From Hyphomicrobium methylovorum (GTDB taxonomy: Bacteria; Pseudomonadota; Alphaproteobacteria; Rhizobiales; Hyphomicrobiaceae): a DNA stretch of 64,000 bases. The translations under genes and the position numbers were made by a program. Below, in pieces: positions 52,634 through 64,000 of the stretch. The stretch covers positions 1,054,001-1,118,000 of the forward strand of contig NZ_QHJE01000001.1 of assembly GCF_013626205.1 (NCBI RefSeq), read 5' to 3'. Each line of letters opens with the position of its first letter. The first letter of the stretch is position 1. The notes below the pieces were generated by a model. That model ran no database searches and had not been told where the DNA came from. It worked only from the letters and a program-made list of their open reading frames with translations.

Positions 52634-52744
52634 TCAAGGTTCGGGATGAGGCTCAAACAGTTGAGAATACTCAGCTAAGTCGTCGTTCAGAGCTTCGAGC
52701 AACTCAAGCAATTGGTGCGAACTGGACCCGTCCGGGCGCGCCAC
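52634..52744 (-). CDS. 36-residue microprotein, left copy
   Basis: Frame from GTG at 52744 (an upstream in-frame TTG would add three residues) to TGA at 52634. Key segments are QLLELLEALNDDLAE and YSQLFEPHPEP. The right copy at 62958 is 25 of 36 identical, and several differences are at third codon positions (CTC/TTC aside, GAG/GAA, CCC/CCG), suggesting selection on protein. The sequence is acidic and helical. It is short and previously unannotated as far as I can tell. No function is known. Confidence 0.55.
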   Translation of the reverse strand: MARPDGSSSHQLLELLEALNDDLAEYSQLFEPHPEP

Positions 52745-57455: not shown

Positions 57456-59201
57456 ATGGCCATGATGAAGCGCATTGACTTACTTAAACACCGGCTGCGT
57501 GCCATCACGGCGTTGGCGGCTGTGCTGTTCGTTGCGGTCATAGCCTTTTCTGCCTCAGGCGCATATGCCCACGGCGGTGAAGATCACGGCGGCGAGGAAG
57601 CCGCCGTGACTTCGGCCTCCGGGCCGCGTGTCGATGCACACTCGACGGATTTTGAGCTGGTCGGCATCCCGAGCGGTCGCGACGGCGGTGTGCTCAACGT
57701 CTATCTCAACGACTACGCGACCAACAAGAGTATCGCAGGCGCGACCATCGAGTTGATTCGCGGCGGGGAGACGATCTCCGCCGTAGAAGCCAACGGCATT
57801 TATCGGTTCAAGGCCCCGTGGGTCACAACGCCGGGCCACTATGATCTGACTTTTTCGATTGCGGCTGGTGAGAAGGCTGACCTGCTGATCGGTCGCCTCG
57901 ATATTCCTGCCGCGCCTCCGGCGGCGGCAGCTCACGAGTCCATCTGGGATCATATCGTGCCGCACGATTCCGGGCTCGCGAACCTCCCCATCTGGGTACC
58001 AGCGGTAACAGTCGCACTTGCTTTGCTGCTTGCGTCGCTAGCCCTTAAAGGGCCGTCTGCGTTTCGTGCCGTCTTCCTGACGGCAGCTTTCATGAGCGGA
58101 ATTAGCAGTGTGGCGCTTGCGGCGGTTGTGCTGGCCAACGGTGCACGCGTCTTTCCAGAATCGTCGGTCGCGTTGCTGGATTTGCCCGATACATCGCGAC
58201 GGCTTGAAGATGGGGCGGTGTTCGTGCCCAAGCCGACGCAGCGGCTGCTTGGTGTTGCCACAGTGAAAGCCGCAAAGGCAGAAACTGTGCAGAAGACGGT
58301 GCGGCTCATCGGTCAGGTGATACCCGATCCCAACCGCAGCGGTGTTGTTCAATCTTTGCTGGCTGGACGCATCGAGCCGCCCGAGAACGGGTTTCCGCTA
58401 ATCGGCAGCACGATCAAGAAAGGCGATCTGCTCGGTTATCTGGTGCCGCGTGTCGAACTCGTTGACCAGAGCGACATCACGCAGACGCAAGGCGATCTCG
58501 ATAAGCAAATCGCCCTTCTCGAAGCCAAGCTCAAACGTATTGAACCCTTGAGTGGTGCGGCCGTACCCGCCAGCCAAATCGCCGATACGAAGATCGAACT
58601 CGATATTCTTCTCAAGCGGCGCGCGGCGATCAAACCCGTTCTGAAAGAGCGCGAGGAACTGCGCTCGCCTGCTGACGGCATTCTAGCGCAATCGAACGTG
58701 GCAGCAGGCCAAGTGGTCGAAGCGCAGACACTGCTGTTCCAGATCGTCGATCCGAAAAATCTGTGGGTCGAAGCCCTCGCCTTCGATGCTGCGACGGCGG
58801 CAGGTATTGAGCAATCCGGTGCGCAGGCGCTCGCACAGACAGCCGATGGACGAAAGGTTGCCGTGAGTTTCGCCGGGCGTTCGCCGGCGCTTCGTCAGCA
58901 GGCGGTTCCGCTGCGATTCCGGATTGAAGGAGAGGGCCCTGCGCTGAATGTCGGGGAGCCGGTCACAGTTCATGCGCCAATCAACGAGTCGGTTTCAGCG
59001 ATCACGCTTCCGCGTGCAAGCGTGGTGCGATCAGGCAATGGCCAGTCGGTTGTGTGGGCGCATGTTGAAGCCGAGAGGTTCGAGCAGCGCGTGATTAAAA
59101 CCGCGCCGGTCGATGCCGAGCGGCTTGGCGTGACGGGCGGTCTCGAAGCTGGAACGCGGGTGGTGACTCGCGGTGCCGAACTCATCAATCAGGTACGGTG
59201 A
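57456..59201 (+). CDS. RND metal-efflux periplasmic adaptor with long N-terminal extension
   Basis: A 581-residue membrane-fusion protein. The adaptor core occupies about 240-581: hairpin helices ([25 protein letters not shown]), lipoyl-like halves ([23 protein letters not shown]) and a beta domain ending [11 protein letters not shown]. The first 240 residues are unusual: signal peptide, His-rich [12 protein letters not shown], an immunoglobulin-like beta domain ([24 protein letters not shown]...) and two membrane helices. Usual CusB/CzcB proteins are near 400 residues. It immediately precedes the pump gene. No outer-membrane partner gene is in the window. Confidence 0.85.
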
Positions 59202-59211
59202 GGAGGCATCC

Positions 59212-62200
59212 ATGTTCAATTTCCTCATCAAGACCAGTCTAAACAACCGTTTGATTGTTCTGGCCGCAGGGGCATTGCTTGTGGTGTGGGGCAGCTTCGC
59301 GCTTCGGACGCTTCCGGTCGATGTTTTTCCCGACCTCAACAAACCGACTGTGACCATCATGACGGAAGCGGAGGGCTTGGCTCCGCCCGAGGTCGAGCAA
59401 CTCGTCGGTTACCCTATCGAGACGGCGCTCAACGGAATTGCTGGCGTGACGCGCGTCCGCTCCGTGGCTGGCATCGGCCTGTCGATCGTCTACGCTGAGT
59501 TTGACTGGGGCACGGATATCTATCGCAACCGTCAGCAGGTTGCGGAAAGACTGGCAAGCATCGCCGCCCAGCTGCCGCCCGGCATTACGCCGCAAATGGG
59601 ACCTGTGTCGTCGATCATGGGCGAAATCATGCTGATCGCCGTCACGGGTGACGGCAAGGCCGATGCCATGACCGTACGCGAAACAGCAGACTTCATCATC
59701 CGGCCGCGCCTGCTCTCGATTGCAGGGATCAGCCAAGTGATTCCCATCGGGGGAGAGGTCCGGCAATTCCGGGTCACGCCGAACATTGCGGCGCTGGCAT
59801 CGCTCAACATTGGTGTAGAGGACATCGAGCGCGCTATCCGCGCCTTTGGCGGCAATACCGGCGGCGGGTTCGTCGATCAACATGAACGCGAATATCTGAT
59901 CCGCAACATAGGTCGTACGACAGACCTCGAAGATCTACGCAGTGTCGTAATCACGACACGAGAGGATCAGCCTGTCTTTCTGCATCAGGTGGCTGATGTC
60001 GGCTATGCGGCACAGGTCAAGCGCGGCGATGCCGGATTCAACGGCGCGCCGGCCGTCATCATATCGATCCAGAAGCAGCCGGGCTCCGACACGATCACGG
60101 TGACGAACGAGGTGGAAAAGGCTCTGGCCGAGCTTAGTAGAAACCTCACCAATGGTGTCAAAGCTGAACAAATTCTGTTCCGGCAGGCGGATTTCATTTC
60201 GACCTCGATCGCCAACGTCAAGACCGTGCTCTTCGAAGCAGCGATCGTCGTCGCGGTCATTCTGTTCCTGTTTCTGTTGAATGTACGGACGACGCTCATA
60301 TCCTTGACGGCGATCCCGCTCTCGTTGTTCGTGACGGTTCTGGTGTTCAAGGCCTTCGGCCTTTCGATCAACACGATGACGCTTGGCGGCTTGGCCATTG
60401 CCATCGGTGAATTGGTCGATGACGCCGTGGTCGATGTCGAGAACATCTTTCGGCGGCTCAGAGAAAACCGGGCAAAGGCAAACCCTAGACCGCTTCTTCA
60501 AGTGGTCGCGGATGCCAGCATCGAGGTGCGATCCGGGATCGTCTACGCGACCTTCATCATCGTGCTTGTCTTTATTCCGCTCTTTGCCCTCTCAGGCATA
60601 GAAGGTCGCCTCTTTGCTCCGCTCGGCATCGCCTACATCGTTTCCATCCTCGCAAGTCTTCTCGTCTCGATAACAGTGACGCCGGTATTAGCCTCGTATT
60701 TACTGGGCCGCGCCAAGCAGCTCGATCATCACGATGGTGCCTTCGTGCGGGTGCTCAAGCGCGGCAATGAACGCTTGCTCGATTGGGCCTTCCGGCGTTC
60801 GAATGCCATCATCGCACTAACACTCGCAGCCGTGCTTGTTGCCGGCGTTATGGCGGCGGCTTTGCCCCGCGCGTTTCTGCCCTCGTTCAACGAAGGCACG
60901 CTCACCATCAGCATGACCTTCAATCCCGGCATCTCGCTCGAAGAGAGCCACCGCATCGGCCTGATTGCCGAGAAACTCTTGACCGAGGTGCCGGAAGTCA
61001 AAACCGCCGGACGGCGGACCGGGCGCGCCGAGCTTGATGAGCATGCGGAAGGGGTACATTCGAGCGAAATTGATGTGGATCTGGAGAAGTCTGATCGCAC
61101 GCGTGAGAACATCCTTGCCGATGTCCGCGCCAAGCTCGCCGTGCTTCCCGCGACGATCAATGTCGGTCAGCCGATTTCGCACCGTCTGGACCATTTGCTC
61201 TCCGGGGTGCGAGCGGAGATCGCTCTCAAAATCTACGGGGACGATCTCGACACCCTGCGAAGCCTCGCCGAAACGCTGCGCGCGAAGCTCTCCGGCATTG
61301 ACGGCTTGGTCGATCTGCAAACCGAAAAGCAGGTGCTGATCCCGCAGCTTGAGATTCGCGTCGACCCCGACCGGGCCGCGTTGTTTGGTGTGACACCGGC
61401 CTCCGTCACGGAGGCACTGGAAAGCCTGTCCAACGGCCGGACCGTGTCAACTGTCATCGACGGCGCGAAGCGTTTCGATGTCGTCATGCGCCTATCCGAG
61501 GCTGACCGGACCACGACGGGCCTGAGCGAGCTTCTGATCGAAACGCCGAAAGGCCGCGTTCCGCTCAACCGCATTGCAAGCGTTGAAGAGACGGAAGGTC
61601 CCAATCAGATCGCAAGAGAGAACGGCCGCCGCCGAATAGTCGTGCTCGCCAACACGGACGGCTCCGATATGGCGGAGATCATCAACCGCATCCGCGAAGT
61701 CGTATCTCAGACACCGCTCCCCAGCGGCTATTCGACGAGCTTGGAGGGAACTTTCTTGGCGCAGGAGGAGGCCTCACGGCTCATCCTCGGCCTTTCGCTG
61801 ATCTCGCTCGCATCGATCTTCGTTGTTCTATACAGCCGTTACCGCTCCGCGGCTCTCGCGCTGATCATCATGGGCAATATCCCGCTTGCCTTTATCGGTA
61901 GCGTGATCGCGCTTTGGATCGCTGATCAACCGCTCTCCGTCGCCTCGATGATCGGCTTTATCACCTTGACAGGGATCAGCGCGCGCAACGGCATTTTGAA
62001 GATCAGTCACTATATCAATCTGGCTCTCTATGAAGGGGAGAGCTTCGGCGATCGGCTTATTGTGCGCGGGAGTCTGGAGCGCCTAACCCCGGTGCTCATG
62101 ACGGCACTCTCGGCCGGAATGGCGCTGATCCCACTGCTCTACGGGGCTGACGCGCCGGGTAAGGAAATCCTGCATCCGGTTGCGGTGACGATTTTCGGCG

Positions 62201-62334
62201 GTCTTATCAGCGCGACGCTGCTCGACACGCTTTTGACACCAATTCTGTTCCGAAAATTCGGCGCGGGACCTTTGCAGCGGCTCAGAGATAGCCGTCCGCT
62301 GGCGGGGGACACCCAGACGATTGAAGCCTACTAA
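59212..62334 (+). CDS. CusA/CzcA-type heavy-metal RND pump
   Basis: A 1040-residue trimeric pump of the HME-RND family. [20 protein letters not shown] opens helix 1; [18 protein letters not shown] in helix 4 has the proton-relay aspartates; [14 protein letters not shown] and [22 protein letters not shown] are periplasmic motifs of the CzcA/CusA group. It uses proton flow to expel metal through the adaptor. GAGGAGG precedes the ATG at 59212, 10 bp after the adaptor stop. Cu/Ag or Zn/Co/Cd specificity cannot be decided by eye; the CsoR/CopA context favours Cu/Ag. Confidence 0.92.
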
Positions 62335-62353
62335 CGACAAGAGGAGAAAAGTT

Positions 62354-62743
62354 ATGTTCAAAGACTTCCATAAATCCACGCTGATAGCTTTGATGGCGGC
62401 GCTAATGCTTGCGCTTTCGCCCTACGCTATGGCGCACGAGGCGACCAAAGGGCCAAACGGGGGTGCCCTCGTCGATGTCGAAGGGCATCACATCGAGTTT
62501 GTTCCGGGCGAGGGGCAGTTCACATTTTATCTCACTGGAGAGAAAGATGCTCCGATCGACTCCGCAGGGTCGAAGCTAAAAGCCATCATCCTAGACGGCG
62601 GCAAAACCCAACAGGTGGATTTGACGCCAAGCGAGCCTAACAAGCTGACTGCTGAAGCATCTGCGTCATCAGGCGCCAAAGTGGTCGTATCGGGCACTCT
62701 CGCCGACGGGCATGCTCTGCAAGCAAGATTTGTGGTGCCGTGA
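62354..62743 (+). CDS. Small periplasmic protein of the RND operon
   Basis: A 129-residue exported protein: signal peptide MFKDFHKSTLIALMAALMLALSPYAMA, then HEATKGPNGGALVDVEGHHIEFV, with His clusters typical of small proteins co-encoded with metal RND pumps. The rest is beta-rich (KAIILDGGKTQQVDLTP, AKVVVSGTLADGHALQARFVV). GAGGAG precedes the ATG. Last gene of the operon, 19 bp after the pump. It may bind metal in the periplasm; function is not known. Confidence 0.7.
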   Translation: MFKDFHKSTLIALMAALMLALSPYAMAHEATKGPNGGALVDVEGHHIEFVPGEGQFTFYLTGEKDAPIDSAGSKLKAIILDGGKTQQVDLTPSEPNKLTAEASASSGAKVVVSGTLADGHALQARFVVP

Positions 62744-62957: not shown

Positions 62958-63068
62958 TCAAGGCTCCGGATAAGGCTCAAACAGTTGAGAACACTCAGCT
63001 AAGTCGTCTTTCAGAGACTCGAATAGTTCAAGCAATTCGTTCGAACTATTTCCATAATGGCGCGCCAT
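62958..63068 (-). CDS. 36-residue microprotein, right copy
   Basis: ATG at 63068 (MARHYGNSSNELLELF) to TGA at 62958; segments SLKDDLAECSQLFEPYPEP. An in-frame TAA lies four codons before the ATG, so this is the only start. Identity to the left copy is 25 of 36, with the acidic C-terminus best kept. It is downstream of the QFLPYxEH-family gene on the same strand. Frame and length are conserved between copies while the flanks have indels, which supports coding. Confidence 0.6.
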   Translation of the reverse strand: MARHYGNSSNELLELFESLKDDLAECSQLFEPYPEP

Positions 63069-63171: not shown

Positions 63172-63348
63172 TTAGTTCGAACTCCTGTCGGGCTTTTTCC
63201 TGTCCGGGGGTGGGCATATATCCCAGGCTTCATCTGCGAAGCTCTCCATAATTTTCCAGAGATCGCGCAGTATTTGCATCTTCATCTCTTCAGATACGGT
63301 AGCGTGCTCCAGATAAGGCAGAAATTGCTCCAGTTGTTTGTCGTCCAT
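63172..63348 (-). CDS. Small QFLPYxEH-family protein, second copy
   Basis: A 58-residue protein (MDDKQLEQFLPYLEHATVSEE, LWKIMESFADEAWDI) homologous to the recombinase-linked gene at 26270. A 31-residue extension to an ATG at 63441 is possible; neither start has a strong ribosome-binding site. In the first copy the recombinase is downstream; here the microprotein is. It is divergent from the fic gene, with the repeat array between. Function unknown. Confidence 0.6.
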   Translation of the reverse strand: MDDKQLEQFLPYLEHATVSEEMKMQILRDLWKIMESFADEAWDICPPPDRKKPDRSSN

Positions 63349-63442
63349 AAGCTTCAGGGTGAAGAATAGCCGGGAACCTGGCAAGTATTTGTGGGGGACG
63401 GCATGCTTGGGTGTGCGGCCCGGAAGTGGGGCAAGGCTCATG

Positions 63443-63608
63443 TTGTATCAATTATCACGCCATAGCGATTTTTTGTACCAATTTTCATGACTTTGTATCA
63501 TTTTTCATGATAGGATGCATCCTGTATCGTTTTTCACAGGAGGGCACCGTTTTTCATGGCCAGAGCGCCGCAGAACCGATTTTCAGGCCCCGTAACCGTT
63601 TTTCATGA
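63443..63608. repeat. Array of seven 18-bp direct repeats at the fic start
   Basis: Copies begin at 63443, 63473, 63493, 63522, 63542, 63571 and 63591. Consensus TTGTAYCRTTTTTCATGA; the best kept part is CRTTTTTCATGA. Start-to-start distances are 30, 20, 29, 20, 29 and 20 bp. The last three copies overlap or lie inside the fic coding region. Copies B and C overlap a likely promoter. The regular two-and-three-turn spacing suggests cooperative binding of a dimer or an iteron-binding protein. Confidence 0.75.
63473..63501 (+). promoter_or_regulatory. Possible fic promoter within the repeat array
   Basis: TTGTAC (63473-63478), 17 bp, TATCAT (63496-63501). Both hexamers belong to repeat copies B and C, so a protein bound to the repeats would compete with RNA polymerase. 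Expected start near 63508, 48 bp before the fic ATG, which has CAGGAGGG upstream at 63537. Confidence 0.45.
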
Positions 63609-64000
63609 ACGGCGGCTGCCGGAGGTTGCGACACCCGTTGGCTATGCGGCGCTGATTGATGCGTATGGCTTGGCCGTTCCGGTTCCGGCCACCCTCTCTG
63701 CAATCGGCACACGTCATCGCCGCACGGAGCAGCAGGGCTGGCGGATATTCGGGCCGCGATATGCGCCGGATGCCAGCCTCGAAGGCCACCTCACATTCGC
63801 TCTCAAGCATGAGGGACTTGATCTTGGGGTGCTCAAGCGCCTGTTCCTTGCCGTGGGTTCGGCGGAAATAGAAAGGCTGGTGCGAGCCGAGCCGACGGGG
63901 CGTTATGCGCGCCGCATCTGGTTTTTGTATGAGTGGCTGACGGGGGCGCGGCTTGACCTGCCGGATGCTGCCGCAGGCACATATGTGGCCGCGCTTGATC
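63556..64000 (+). CDS. Fic-family protein, 3' partial at window edge
   Basis: Open from ATG 63556 (AGGAGGG upstream) to the end of the window. The visible 148 residues include NRFSGPVTVFHERRLPE, GHLTFALKHEGLDLGVLKRLF and GRYARRIWFLYEWLTGARLDLPD, which I recognise as the N-terminal region of a family of Fic/DOC proteins. The Fic motif HPFx(D/E)GNGR, if present, is beyond 64000, so enzyme activity cannot be judged. Fic enzymes usually transfer AMP to proteins. The gene begins inside a repeat array, suggesting self-regulation. Confidence 0.7.
   Translation, partial: MARAPQNRFSGPVTVFHERRLPEVATPVGYAALIDAYGLAVPVPATLSAIGTRHRRTEQQGWRIFGPRYAPDASLEGHLTFALKHEGLDLGVLKRLFLAVGSAEIERLVRAEPTGRYARRIWFLYEWLTGARLDLPDAAAGTYVAALD

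Follow-up and report, generated by a model that had tools for sequence, protein, structure and literature searches.

A seven-repeat array over the promoter region and first codons of a class II fic gene as the probable operator of its own Fic protein

Features of the fic locus

The 64-kb stretch of DNA that we analysed (the window) ends inside a gene for a Fic-domain protein, and the start of this gene lies within a series of seven direct repeats, all on one strand (Table 1). The gene runs past the window end to a stop codon at L002:5097, and the genome continuation supplied the complete open reading frame of 513 aa. From start to start the repeats are 30/20/29/20/29/20 bp apart, and the earlier description of seven copies with alternating 20/29-bp spacing was correct for all copies and all spacings. 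The core proposed for the repeat held in part: the seven copies are present, but CATGA ends only copies 2, 3 and 7, copy 5 has CATGG, and copies 1, 4 and 6 have CACG, CACA and CAGG, respectively.

Table 1. Features of the fic locus and its surroundings in the window. Bits are those of the leave-out PWM; slots are relative to the start codon and are given with the number of loci in which they are filled.
Feature	Coordinates	Strand	Bits	Slot	Remarks
fic	63556..64000	+			first 445 bp in window; whole gene L002:3556-5097, 513 aa
R1	63444..63463	+	9.5	-112, 64/75	upstream of promoter region
R2	63474..63493	+	15.3	-82, 68/75	in family consensus, fills 17-bp promoter spacer
R3	63494..63513	+	16.9	-62, 64/75	in family consensus, overlaps -10 element
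R4	63523..63542	+	16.5	-33, 33/75	probably 5' untranslated region; least conserved
R5	63543..63562	+	15.9	-13	holds fic start codon ATG, 63556-63558
R6	63572..63591	+	13.7		in fic frame, codons 6-12; wobble positions of codons 9 and 10 constrained
R7	63592..63611	+	17.4		taken as 20-mer; in fic frame, codons 13-19; wobble positions of codons 15 and 16 constrained
-10-like TAGGAT	63511..63516	+			putative, from sequence
Shine-Dalgarno-like AGGAGGG	63538..63544	+			R4/R5 border
89-aa ORF	63172..63441	-			divergent from fic, starts 2 bp from R1
Mini-ORF copy	62962..63065	-			about 36 aa
Mini-ORF copy	52638..52741	-			about 36 aa
Heavy-metal-efflux-like ORFs	57456..62743				upstream of fic unit; by eye

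A position weight matrix (PWM) retrained on 73 loci, with the window locus and its two nearest relatives (L006 and L007) omitted, recovered all seven copies; first-order shuffling of these 300 bp, repeated 20,000 times, left 0-4 PWM sites against the seven real ones. The array was also evident when no motif was used. In a motif-free chain test it scored 21, and shuffles reached at best 7 with lags of 20/29/30 (2,000 shuffles) and 8 when any lag of 15-35 was allowed (500 shuffles). There are three exact copies of the pair TTTTCA-N14-TTTTCA in the 3.4-Mb genome, every one of them inside the array, and 15 further places match it with one mismatch. Exact paired sites are thus unique to the fic locus, and no regulon was seen.

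A strict consensus scan of the window for sigma-70 promoters gave no match; the promoter is placed by the family consensus. When the relatives were aligned on R2, a TTG stood four bases 5' of R2, R2 itself formed the 17-bp spacer and TAgrAT overlapped the start of R3. At these -35 and -10 positions the window reads TTTTTG (63470-63475) and TTGTAT (63493-63498), both poor matches, and TAGGAT is the better -10 candidate for the window. Under either putative -10 placement the promoter region lies beneath the repeats, as do the start codon and the Shine-Dalgarno-like sequence, which agrees with the earlier claim that they lie over a likely promoter, the ribosome-binding site and the first codons.

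The array in close relatives

A scan of a genome collection found 406 relatives of the Fic protein, the best 80 of which were kept. A plasmid collection held 282 records with a match, and no Fic relative was found in a phage collection at E 1e-5. The close set of 85 loci with enough upstream sequence was reduced by the removal of 9 near-duplicates to 76 loci, window locus included, and an EM motif search with 12 random starts was run on their upstream sequence alone. The best consensus was AGaATCATTTTTCAtGAAAt, which makes the family repeat an asymmetric unit of about 20 bp; several starts returned shifted versions of the motif and two returned a poly-C artefact. In the 76 loci conservation extends beyond the T tract, to ATC before it and CA after it.

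Sites counted with the EM PWM at a cut-off of 6 bits, a matrix trained on the upstream parts of the same loci, averaged 5.96 per locus (n=76); the corresponding averages were 0.37 for shuffled sequence, 0.64 for the reverse strand and 0.04 for the interior of the gene. Adjacent sites were mostly 20 bp (143 gaps), 29 bp (97), 30 bp (45), 49 bp (31) or 50 bp (16) apart, and the common slots lie near -112, -82, -62, -33, -13, +16 and +36 relative to the start codon. The last two are out of sample, as only upstream sequence had been used to learn the motif. The same repeats and spacing recur at other fic homologues as a common seven-slot frame in 76 non-redundant loci, with seven or more sites in only 22 of them and nine at most. 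Conserved protein N-termini without repeats, named in the initial annotation as a possible counter-observation, are not what these loci gave: 75 of them have at least four sites and one has two.

The start codon lies inside R5 and R4-R7 are downstream of the consensus promoter, as would suit repeats that act in the mRNA, where the Fic protein or an antisense RNA at the start codon would block translation. We find this very improbable, since R1-R3, which are well kept, precede or overlap the consensus promoter, the spacings are near whole helical turns, as suits DNA, and at some Bradyrhizobium loci (L049, L062 and L077) the R5 repeat persists with no ATG inside it.

Direct repeats with near-helical spacing also recall an iteron-type replication or partition site, and an iteron-like replication site had been among the earlier suggestions. 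However, the fic locus is on a 3.44-Mb contig, no replication gene was recognised by eye among the ORFs around fic (L002), and the array is tied to one gene, over its start codon in many hosts, on plasmids and large contigs alike; we give this reading next to no probability. In 18 plasmid stretches with the gene, one of them without annotation, repC was found about 0.8 kb downstream of fic once.

Constraint inside the reading frame

We compared codon usage in 75 loci (L100 was left out), with codons 25-499 as background. TTT encodes Phe9 in 71 of 73 loci and Phe16 in 70 of 71, compared with a gene background of 29%. TCA is used at Ser10 in 66 of 72 (background 9%), and GTT at Val15 in 61 of 67 (background 19%). 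When the loci were thinned at 75% identity (17 loci), the counts were 16/17 for TTT9, 16/17 for TCA10, 14/17 for GTT15 and 14/17 for TTT16. A or T occupies the third position with a frequency of 0.89-0.99 in codons 9, 10, 15 and 16, compared with 0.11 in codon 14, 0.20 in codon 17 and 0.29 over the rest of the gene. The frequency is also elevated, to about 0.5-0.75, at codons 2, 5, 7, 8, 12, 18 and 21-23, indicating a mild start-of-gene effect that is insufficient by itself for the four key codons. These four are held to the wobble letters of the repeat, corroborating the earlier claim that the repeats shape the protein start.

The in-frame repeats might instead be a mere conserved N-terminus, with the upstream copies as chance matches or relics of duplication. 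FSGPxxxF is indeed conserved in the N-termini of close relatives, and the raised A/T at some non-key early codons points the same way. But the wobble constraint far exceeds the early-codon background, the upstream sites were recovered without use of the reading frame, and the spacing is kept in divergent homologues with different N-termini (see below), so that hardly any credence is left for this explanation.

Divergent homologues and clade-specific motifs

From 186 loci with the gene, 180 were full enough and 142 of these were non-redundant, including 53 whose protein is less than 60% identical to that of the window. Motif-free self-matches in the 53 divergent loci peak at lags of 20, 30 and 50 (9, 7 and 9 loci), against at most 0.3 per lag in shuffles. 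The 20/29/30 chain test gave p<=0.05 in 37 of the 53 homologues, at 28-57% identity, and 24 of the 53 beat all 200 shuffles; the repeated motif was often a different one from that of the close set. The remaining 16 showed no significant 20/29/30 chain; among them are L101 and L155-L157, where EM placed sites of the clade-D type with gaps including 20, 26, 27 and 30.

An EM search on five divergent clusters returned a clean motif in one, blurred or low-complexity motifs in two and failed in two. The clean case was the L087 group (8 loci), with a TTTTCGAC-type motif and gaps of 30 (twelve), 20 (nine) and also 26-27. In the L112 group (10 loci) the motif was blurred by extra matches 10-12 bp apart, the L096 group (7 loci) gave a poly-A-like motif, and no repeat motif came from EM on the L086 group (10 loci) and the L110 group (3 loci). 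By eye, the L112-L126 group carries AGCGTAnnnTTTTGC, again at the start codon. The repeat reads GAACGTTTTATTGCAC in L123 and TGTAAGCGTTTTTCAT, with gaps of 29/20/29/20, in L153. The motif letters thus vary by clade, and the spacing is kept.

Phased T5 tracts about 20 and 30 bp apart could, we infer, sum to a curve, and such a bend might itself set the promoter strength. This is extremely unlikely: bending does not need the conserved ATC before and CA after the T tract, nor clade-specific ends such as TTTTCGAC and TTTTGC, and many copies read AAATTC or ATTTTC.

Motif similarity tracks protein identity (r 0.64; Mantel 0 of 2000) in 36 loci, thinned from the 102 (out of 142) whose chain score was 4 or more, a correlation that could be explained by common descent alone. 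Genome G200 has two intact fic paralogues and a broken one. L101 (clade D) carries five D-type and no A-type sites, and L172 (clade A) carries five A-type sites and also four D-type matches, two of them strong; this contrast is partly in-sample, because L101 helped to train the D matrix (eight loci) and close relatives of L172 are in the A set. Mean matches per locus, likewise largely in-sample, were 5.91 A and 0.92 D in 89 clade-A loci and 0.88 A and 6.12 D in 8 clade-D loci. In genomes G108 and G426, with two paralogues each, the motifs differ by eye.

As a side observation, the upstream sequence of L172, which is Bradyrhizobium-like, has in some slots AAATTCGA-type variants that score on the clade-D matrix, as if different slots of this array had different affinities.

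The Fic protein

The complete protein has a Fic domain (Pfam PF02661, E 2.3e-14) with the motif HPFEDGNGR at residues 339-347, and the pattern HPFx[D/E]GNGR was matched by 18 of 18 diverse members. The PADLOC profile PDC-S24 aligned over residues 25-512 with positions 4-490 of 497 (E 5.9e-207) and scored 686.4 bits, against 59.5 bits for the SoFic profile. By profile, the protein is a clear member of PDC-S24 (PDC, phage defence candidate). We found no literature naming PDC-S24 in the open-licence PMC literature.

The inhibitory helix of class II Fic proteins follows the pattern [S/T]xxxE[G/N]. The window protein has S224-YVI-E228-G229, N-terminal to HPFEDGNGR, and S224, I227, E228 and G229 are invariant in 45 close relatives. 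Class II is defined by an inhibitory helix N-terminal to the Fic motif (PMC9755527; PMC12249575), and by motif the window protein is of this class.

An AlphaFold2 model was built, with an alignment of 45, on the L007 relative, which is 96% identical to the window protein. Its mean pLDDT is 81, and residues 266-296 and 337-343 are below 50. Foldseek matched the model to CbFic2 (8cil, rank 1), SoFic (3eqx), 7cb8 and CccR (7xux, rank 8), the last code being confirmed in PMC9755527. Three short C-terminal helices are predicted at residues 466-478, 485-491 and 497-511, in the part of the protein in which the initial annotation had proposed to look for an HTH. A search of the PDB by sequence with the C-terminal profile gave no credible match (best E 0.0083, a hexosaminidase), nor did one with the N-terminal profile, and for the N-terminal domain Foldseek had no match below E 3.3. 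This last result, together with hhalign probabilities of at most 2.6% against the proteins of two AbiEi loci, led us to reject an AbiEi-like N-terminal domain. Sliding-window partial correlations between motif and protein made no region stand out (partial r <=0.16). We therefore assign no DNA-binding region by covariation, with r of 0.15-0.16 around residues 60-95 and 440-480 and down to -0.31 around 264-302.

Searches by profile, fold and covariation thus pinned no DNA-binding domain in the Fic protein, which leaves room for a host DNA-binding protein, such as a nucleoid protein or an unlinked regulator, that would bind the array and control fic. This seems unlikely to us, since paralogues in one host differ in motif (partly in-sample for G200, by eye for G108 and G426) and the exact paired sites are confined to fic.

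Neighbouring genes did not offer a general binder either. When ORFs of at least about 45 aa were clustered across the 117 loci with sufficient flanking sequence, no neighbour ORF recurred at more than 6 of them, and in those six it lies downstream. The 89-aa ORF beside the array, for which Pfam had no match above the cut-off, was found among the loci compared only at the window locus and in L007 (83% identity); the earlier proposal of the small neighbour protein as binder therefore has no support as a general rule.

Proposed regulation and comparison with known systems

The array is specific to fic in the genome, recurs with fic, differs with the clade of the Fic protein and lies over the promoter region and the gene start, and self-repression by the Fic protein is the simplest reading of these data. 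We consider it probable that the array is a seven-site operator to which the Fic protein itself would bind, repressing its own gene. Each of the seven direct repeats would be an operator site for the Fic protein encoded there, with neighbouring Fic molecules separated by about two or three turns of the helix. Bound Fic would cover the promoter and the ribosome-binding site as well as the first 19 codons and so shut down its own transcription, and this would keep a potentially toxic, self-inhibited AMP-transferase scarce. We infer that the Fic protein would be the binder and its binding cooperative and repressive, and the enzyme would presumably be a growth-stopping toxin, possibly anti-phage. 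The initial annotation had suggested an autoregulating Fic protein or a cooperative repressor; autoregulation has gained comparative evidence, and cooperativity is suggested solely by the spacing.

The closest precedent is CccR of Yersinia pseudotuberculosis, a class II Fic protein of 380 aa that binds close to the -35 and -10 elements of its own promoter and represses it, as a dimer on one inverted repeat with a 26-bp spacer (PMC9755527). Like CccR, the window fic is a single-gene class II Fic with a putative operator over the promoter, and by eye AATCAT is common to the CccR site AGATAATCAT and the 5' half of AGaATCATTTTTCAtGAAAt. Unlike CccR, the window protein has 513 aa, and in place of the single inverted repeat there are seven direct repeats, 20/29/30 bp apart and reaching about 50 bp into the gene, which suggests a variant of the CccR scheme and not a copy.

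CbFic2 of Coxiella burnetii binds DNA through a C-terminal wHTH, and this binding regulates its activity (PMC10628234). It is a class II Fic and the best Foldseek match of our model (8cil, E 1.4e-5), with 16% identity over the structural alignment. A term search of PMC10628234 gave no report of its own promoter, an inverted repeat, a binding motif or autoregulation. The C-terminal part of the window protein has three predicted helices, and its sequence profile has no credible match in the PDB. Since the activity of CbFic2 is reportedly regulated by DNA binding, the array may also control the Fic enzyme, as a DNA-held safety catch in which Fic molecules lined up along the seven sites would stay harmless. 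We give this extension little probability. If it were true, loss or destruction of the DNA, through phage attack or loss of the element, would free active enzyme and growth would stop, and fic would be a one-gene toxin-antitoxin module with the DNA array as antitoxin.

SoFic is a class II Fic enzyme that acts as a single-protein anti-phage defence, and downstream of the E. coli Sofic gene lies the gene for a 47-aa antitoxin, AS1 (PMC12249575). The window protein resembles SoFic (3eqx) in class and as a Foldseek match, but belongs to a different PADLOC family. Unlike Sofic with AS1, window-type loci have no conserved partner among the clustered ORFs of the 117 loci.

According to the Discussion of PMC9755527, 80% of Fic proteins belong to class II, whose function is almost entirely unknown. 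A multi-site array at a Fic gene was not reported, by title or start of abstract, among the matches listed in the open-licence PMC literature. One Fic family, with 406 relatives in one genome collection, appears to carry its own regulator site. If the self-repression reading is correct, an operator of several sites that spans promoter and protein start would be a testable rule for keeping Fic enzymes quiet. The reading also predicts a DNA-binding function in parts of the Fic protein without an assigned family, and many natural pairs of protein and DNA site are now available for working out recognition.

Possible mobility of the fic unit

Several further observations concern the surroundings of the gene. 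In one relative (L015:3001-4539) the fic frame contains one stop codon. A 2.2-kb unit made up of the 89-aa ORF, the array, fic and a downstream mini-ORF is 89% identical between the window locus (L002:3038-5254) and L007 (2481-4699), the match ending at or near mini-ORF copies, as if the unit had moved as one piece. The heavy-metal-efflux-like ORFs upstream of it include a membrane-fusion-like protein and a 1053-aa RND-like pump. The mini-ORF has a third copy just past the window (G000:C1:1119146-1119253, minus strand). The three copies, 10.3 kb and 2.2 kb apart, flank the metal-efflux-like ORFs and the fic unit and may mark the edges of exchangeable cassettes. We rejected the mini-ORFs as a general fic partner, since they have relatives at other places in the genome and in 5 of the 59 other genomes searched. 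Genome G788 has two mini-ORF copies, likewise 10.3 kb apart.
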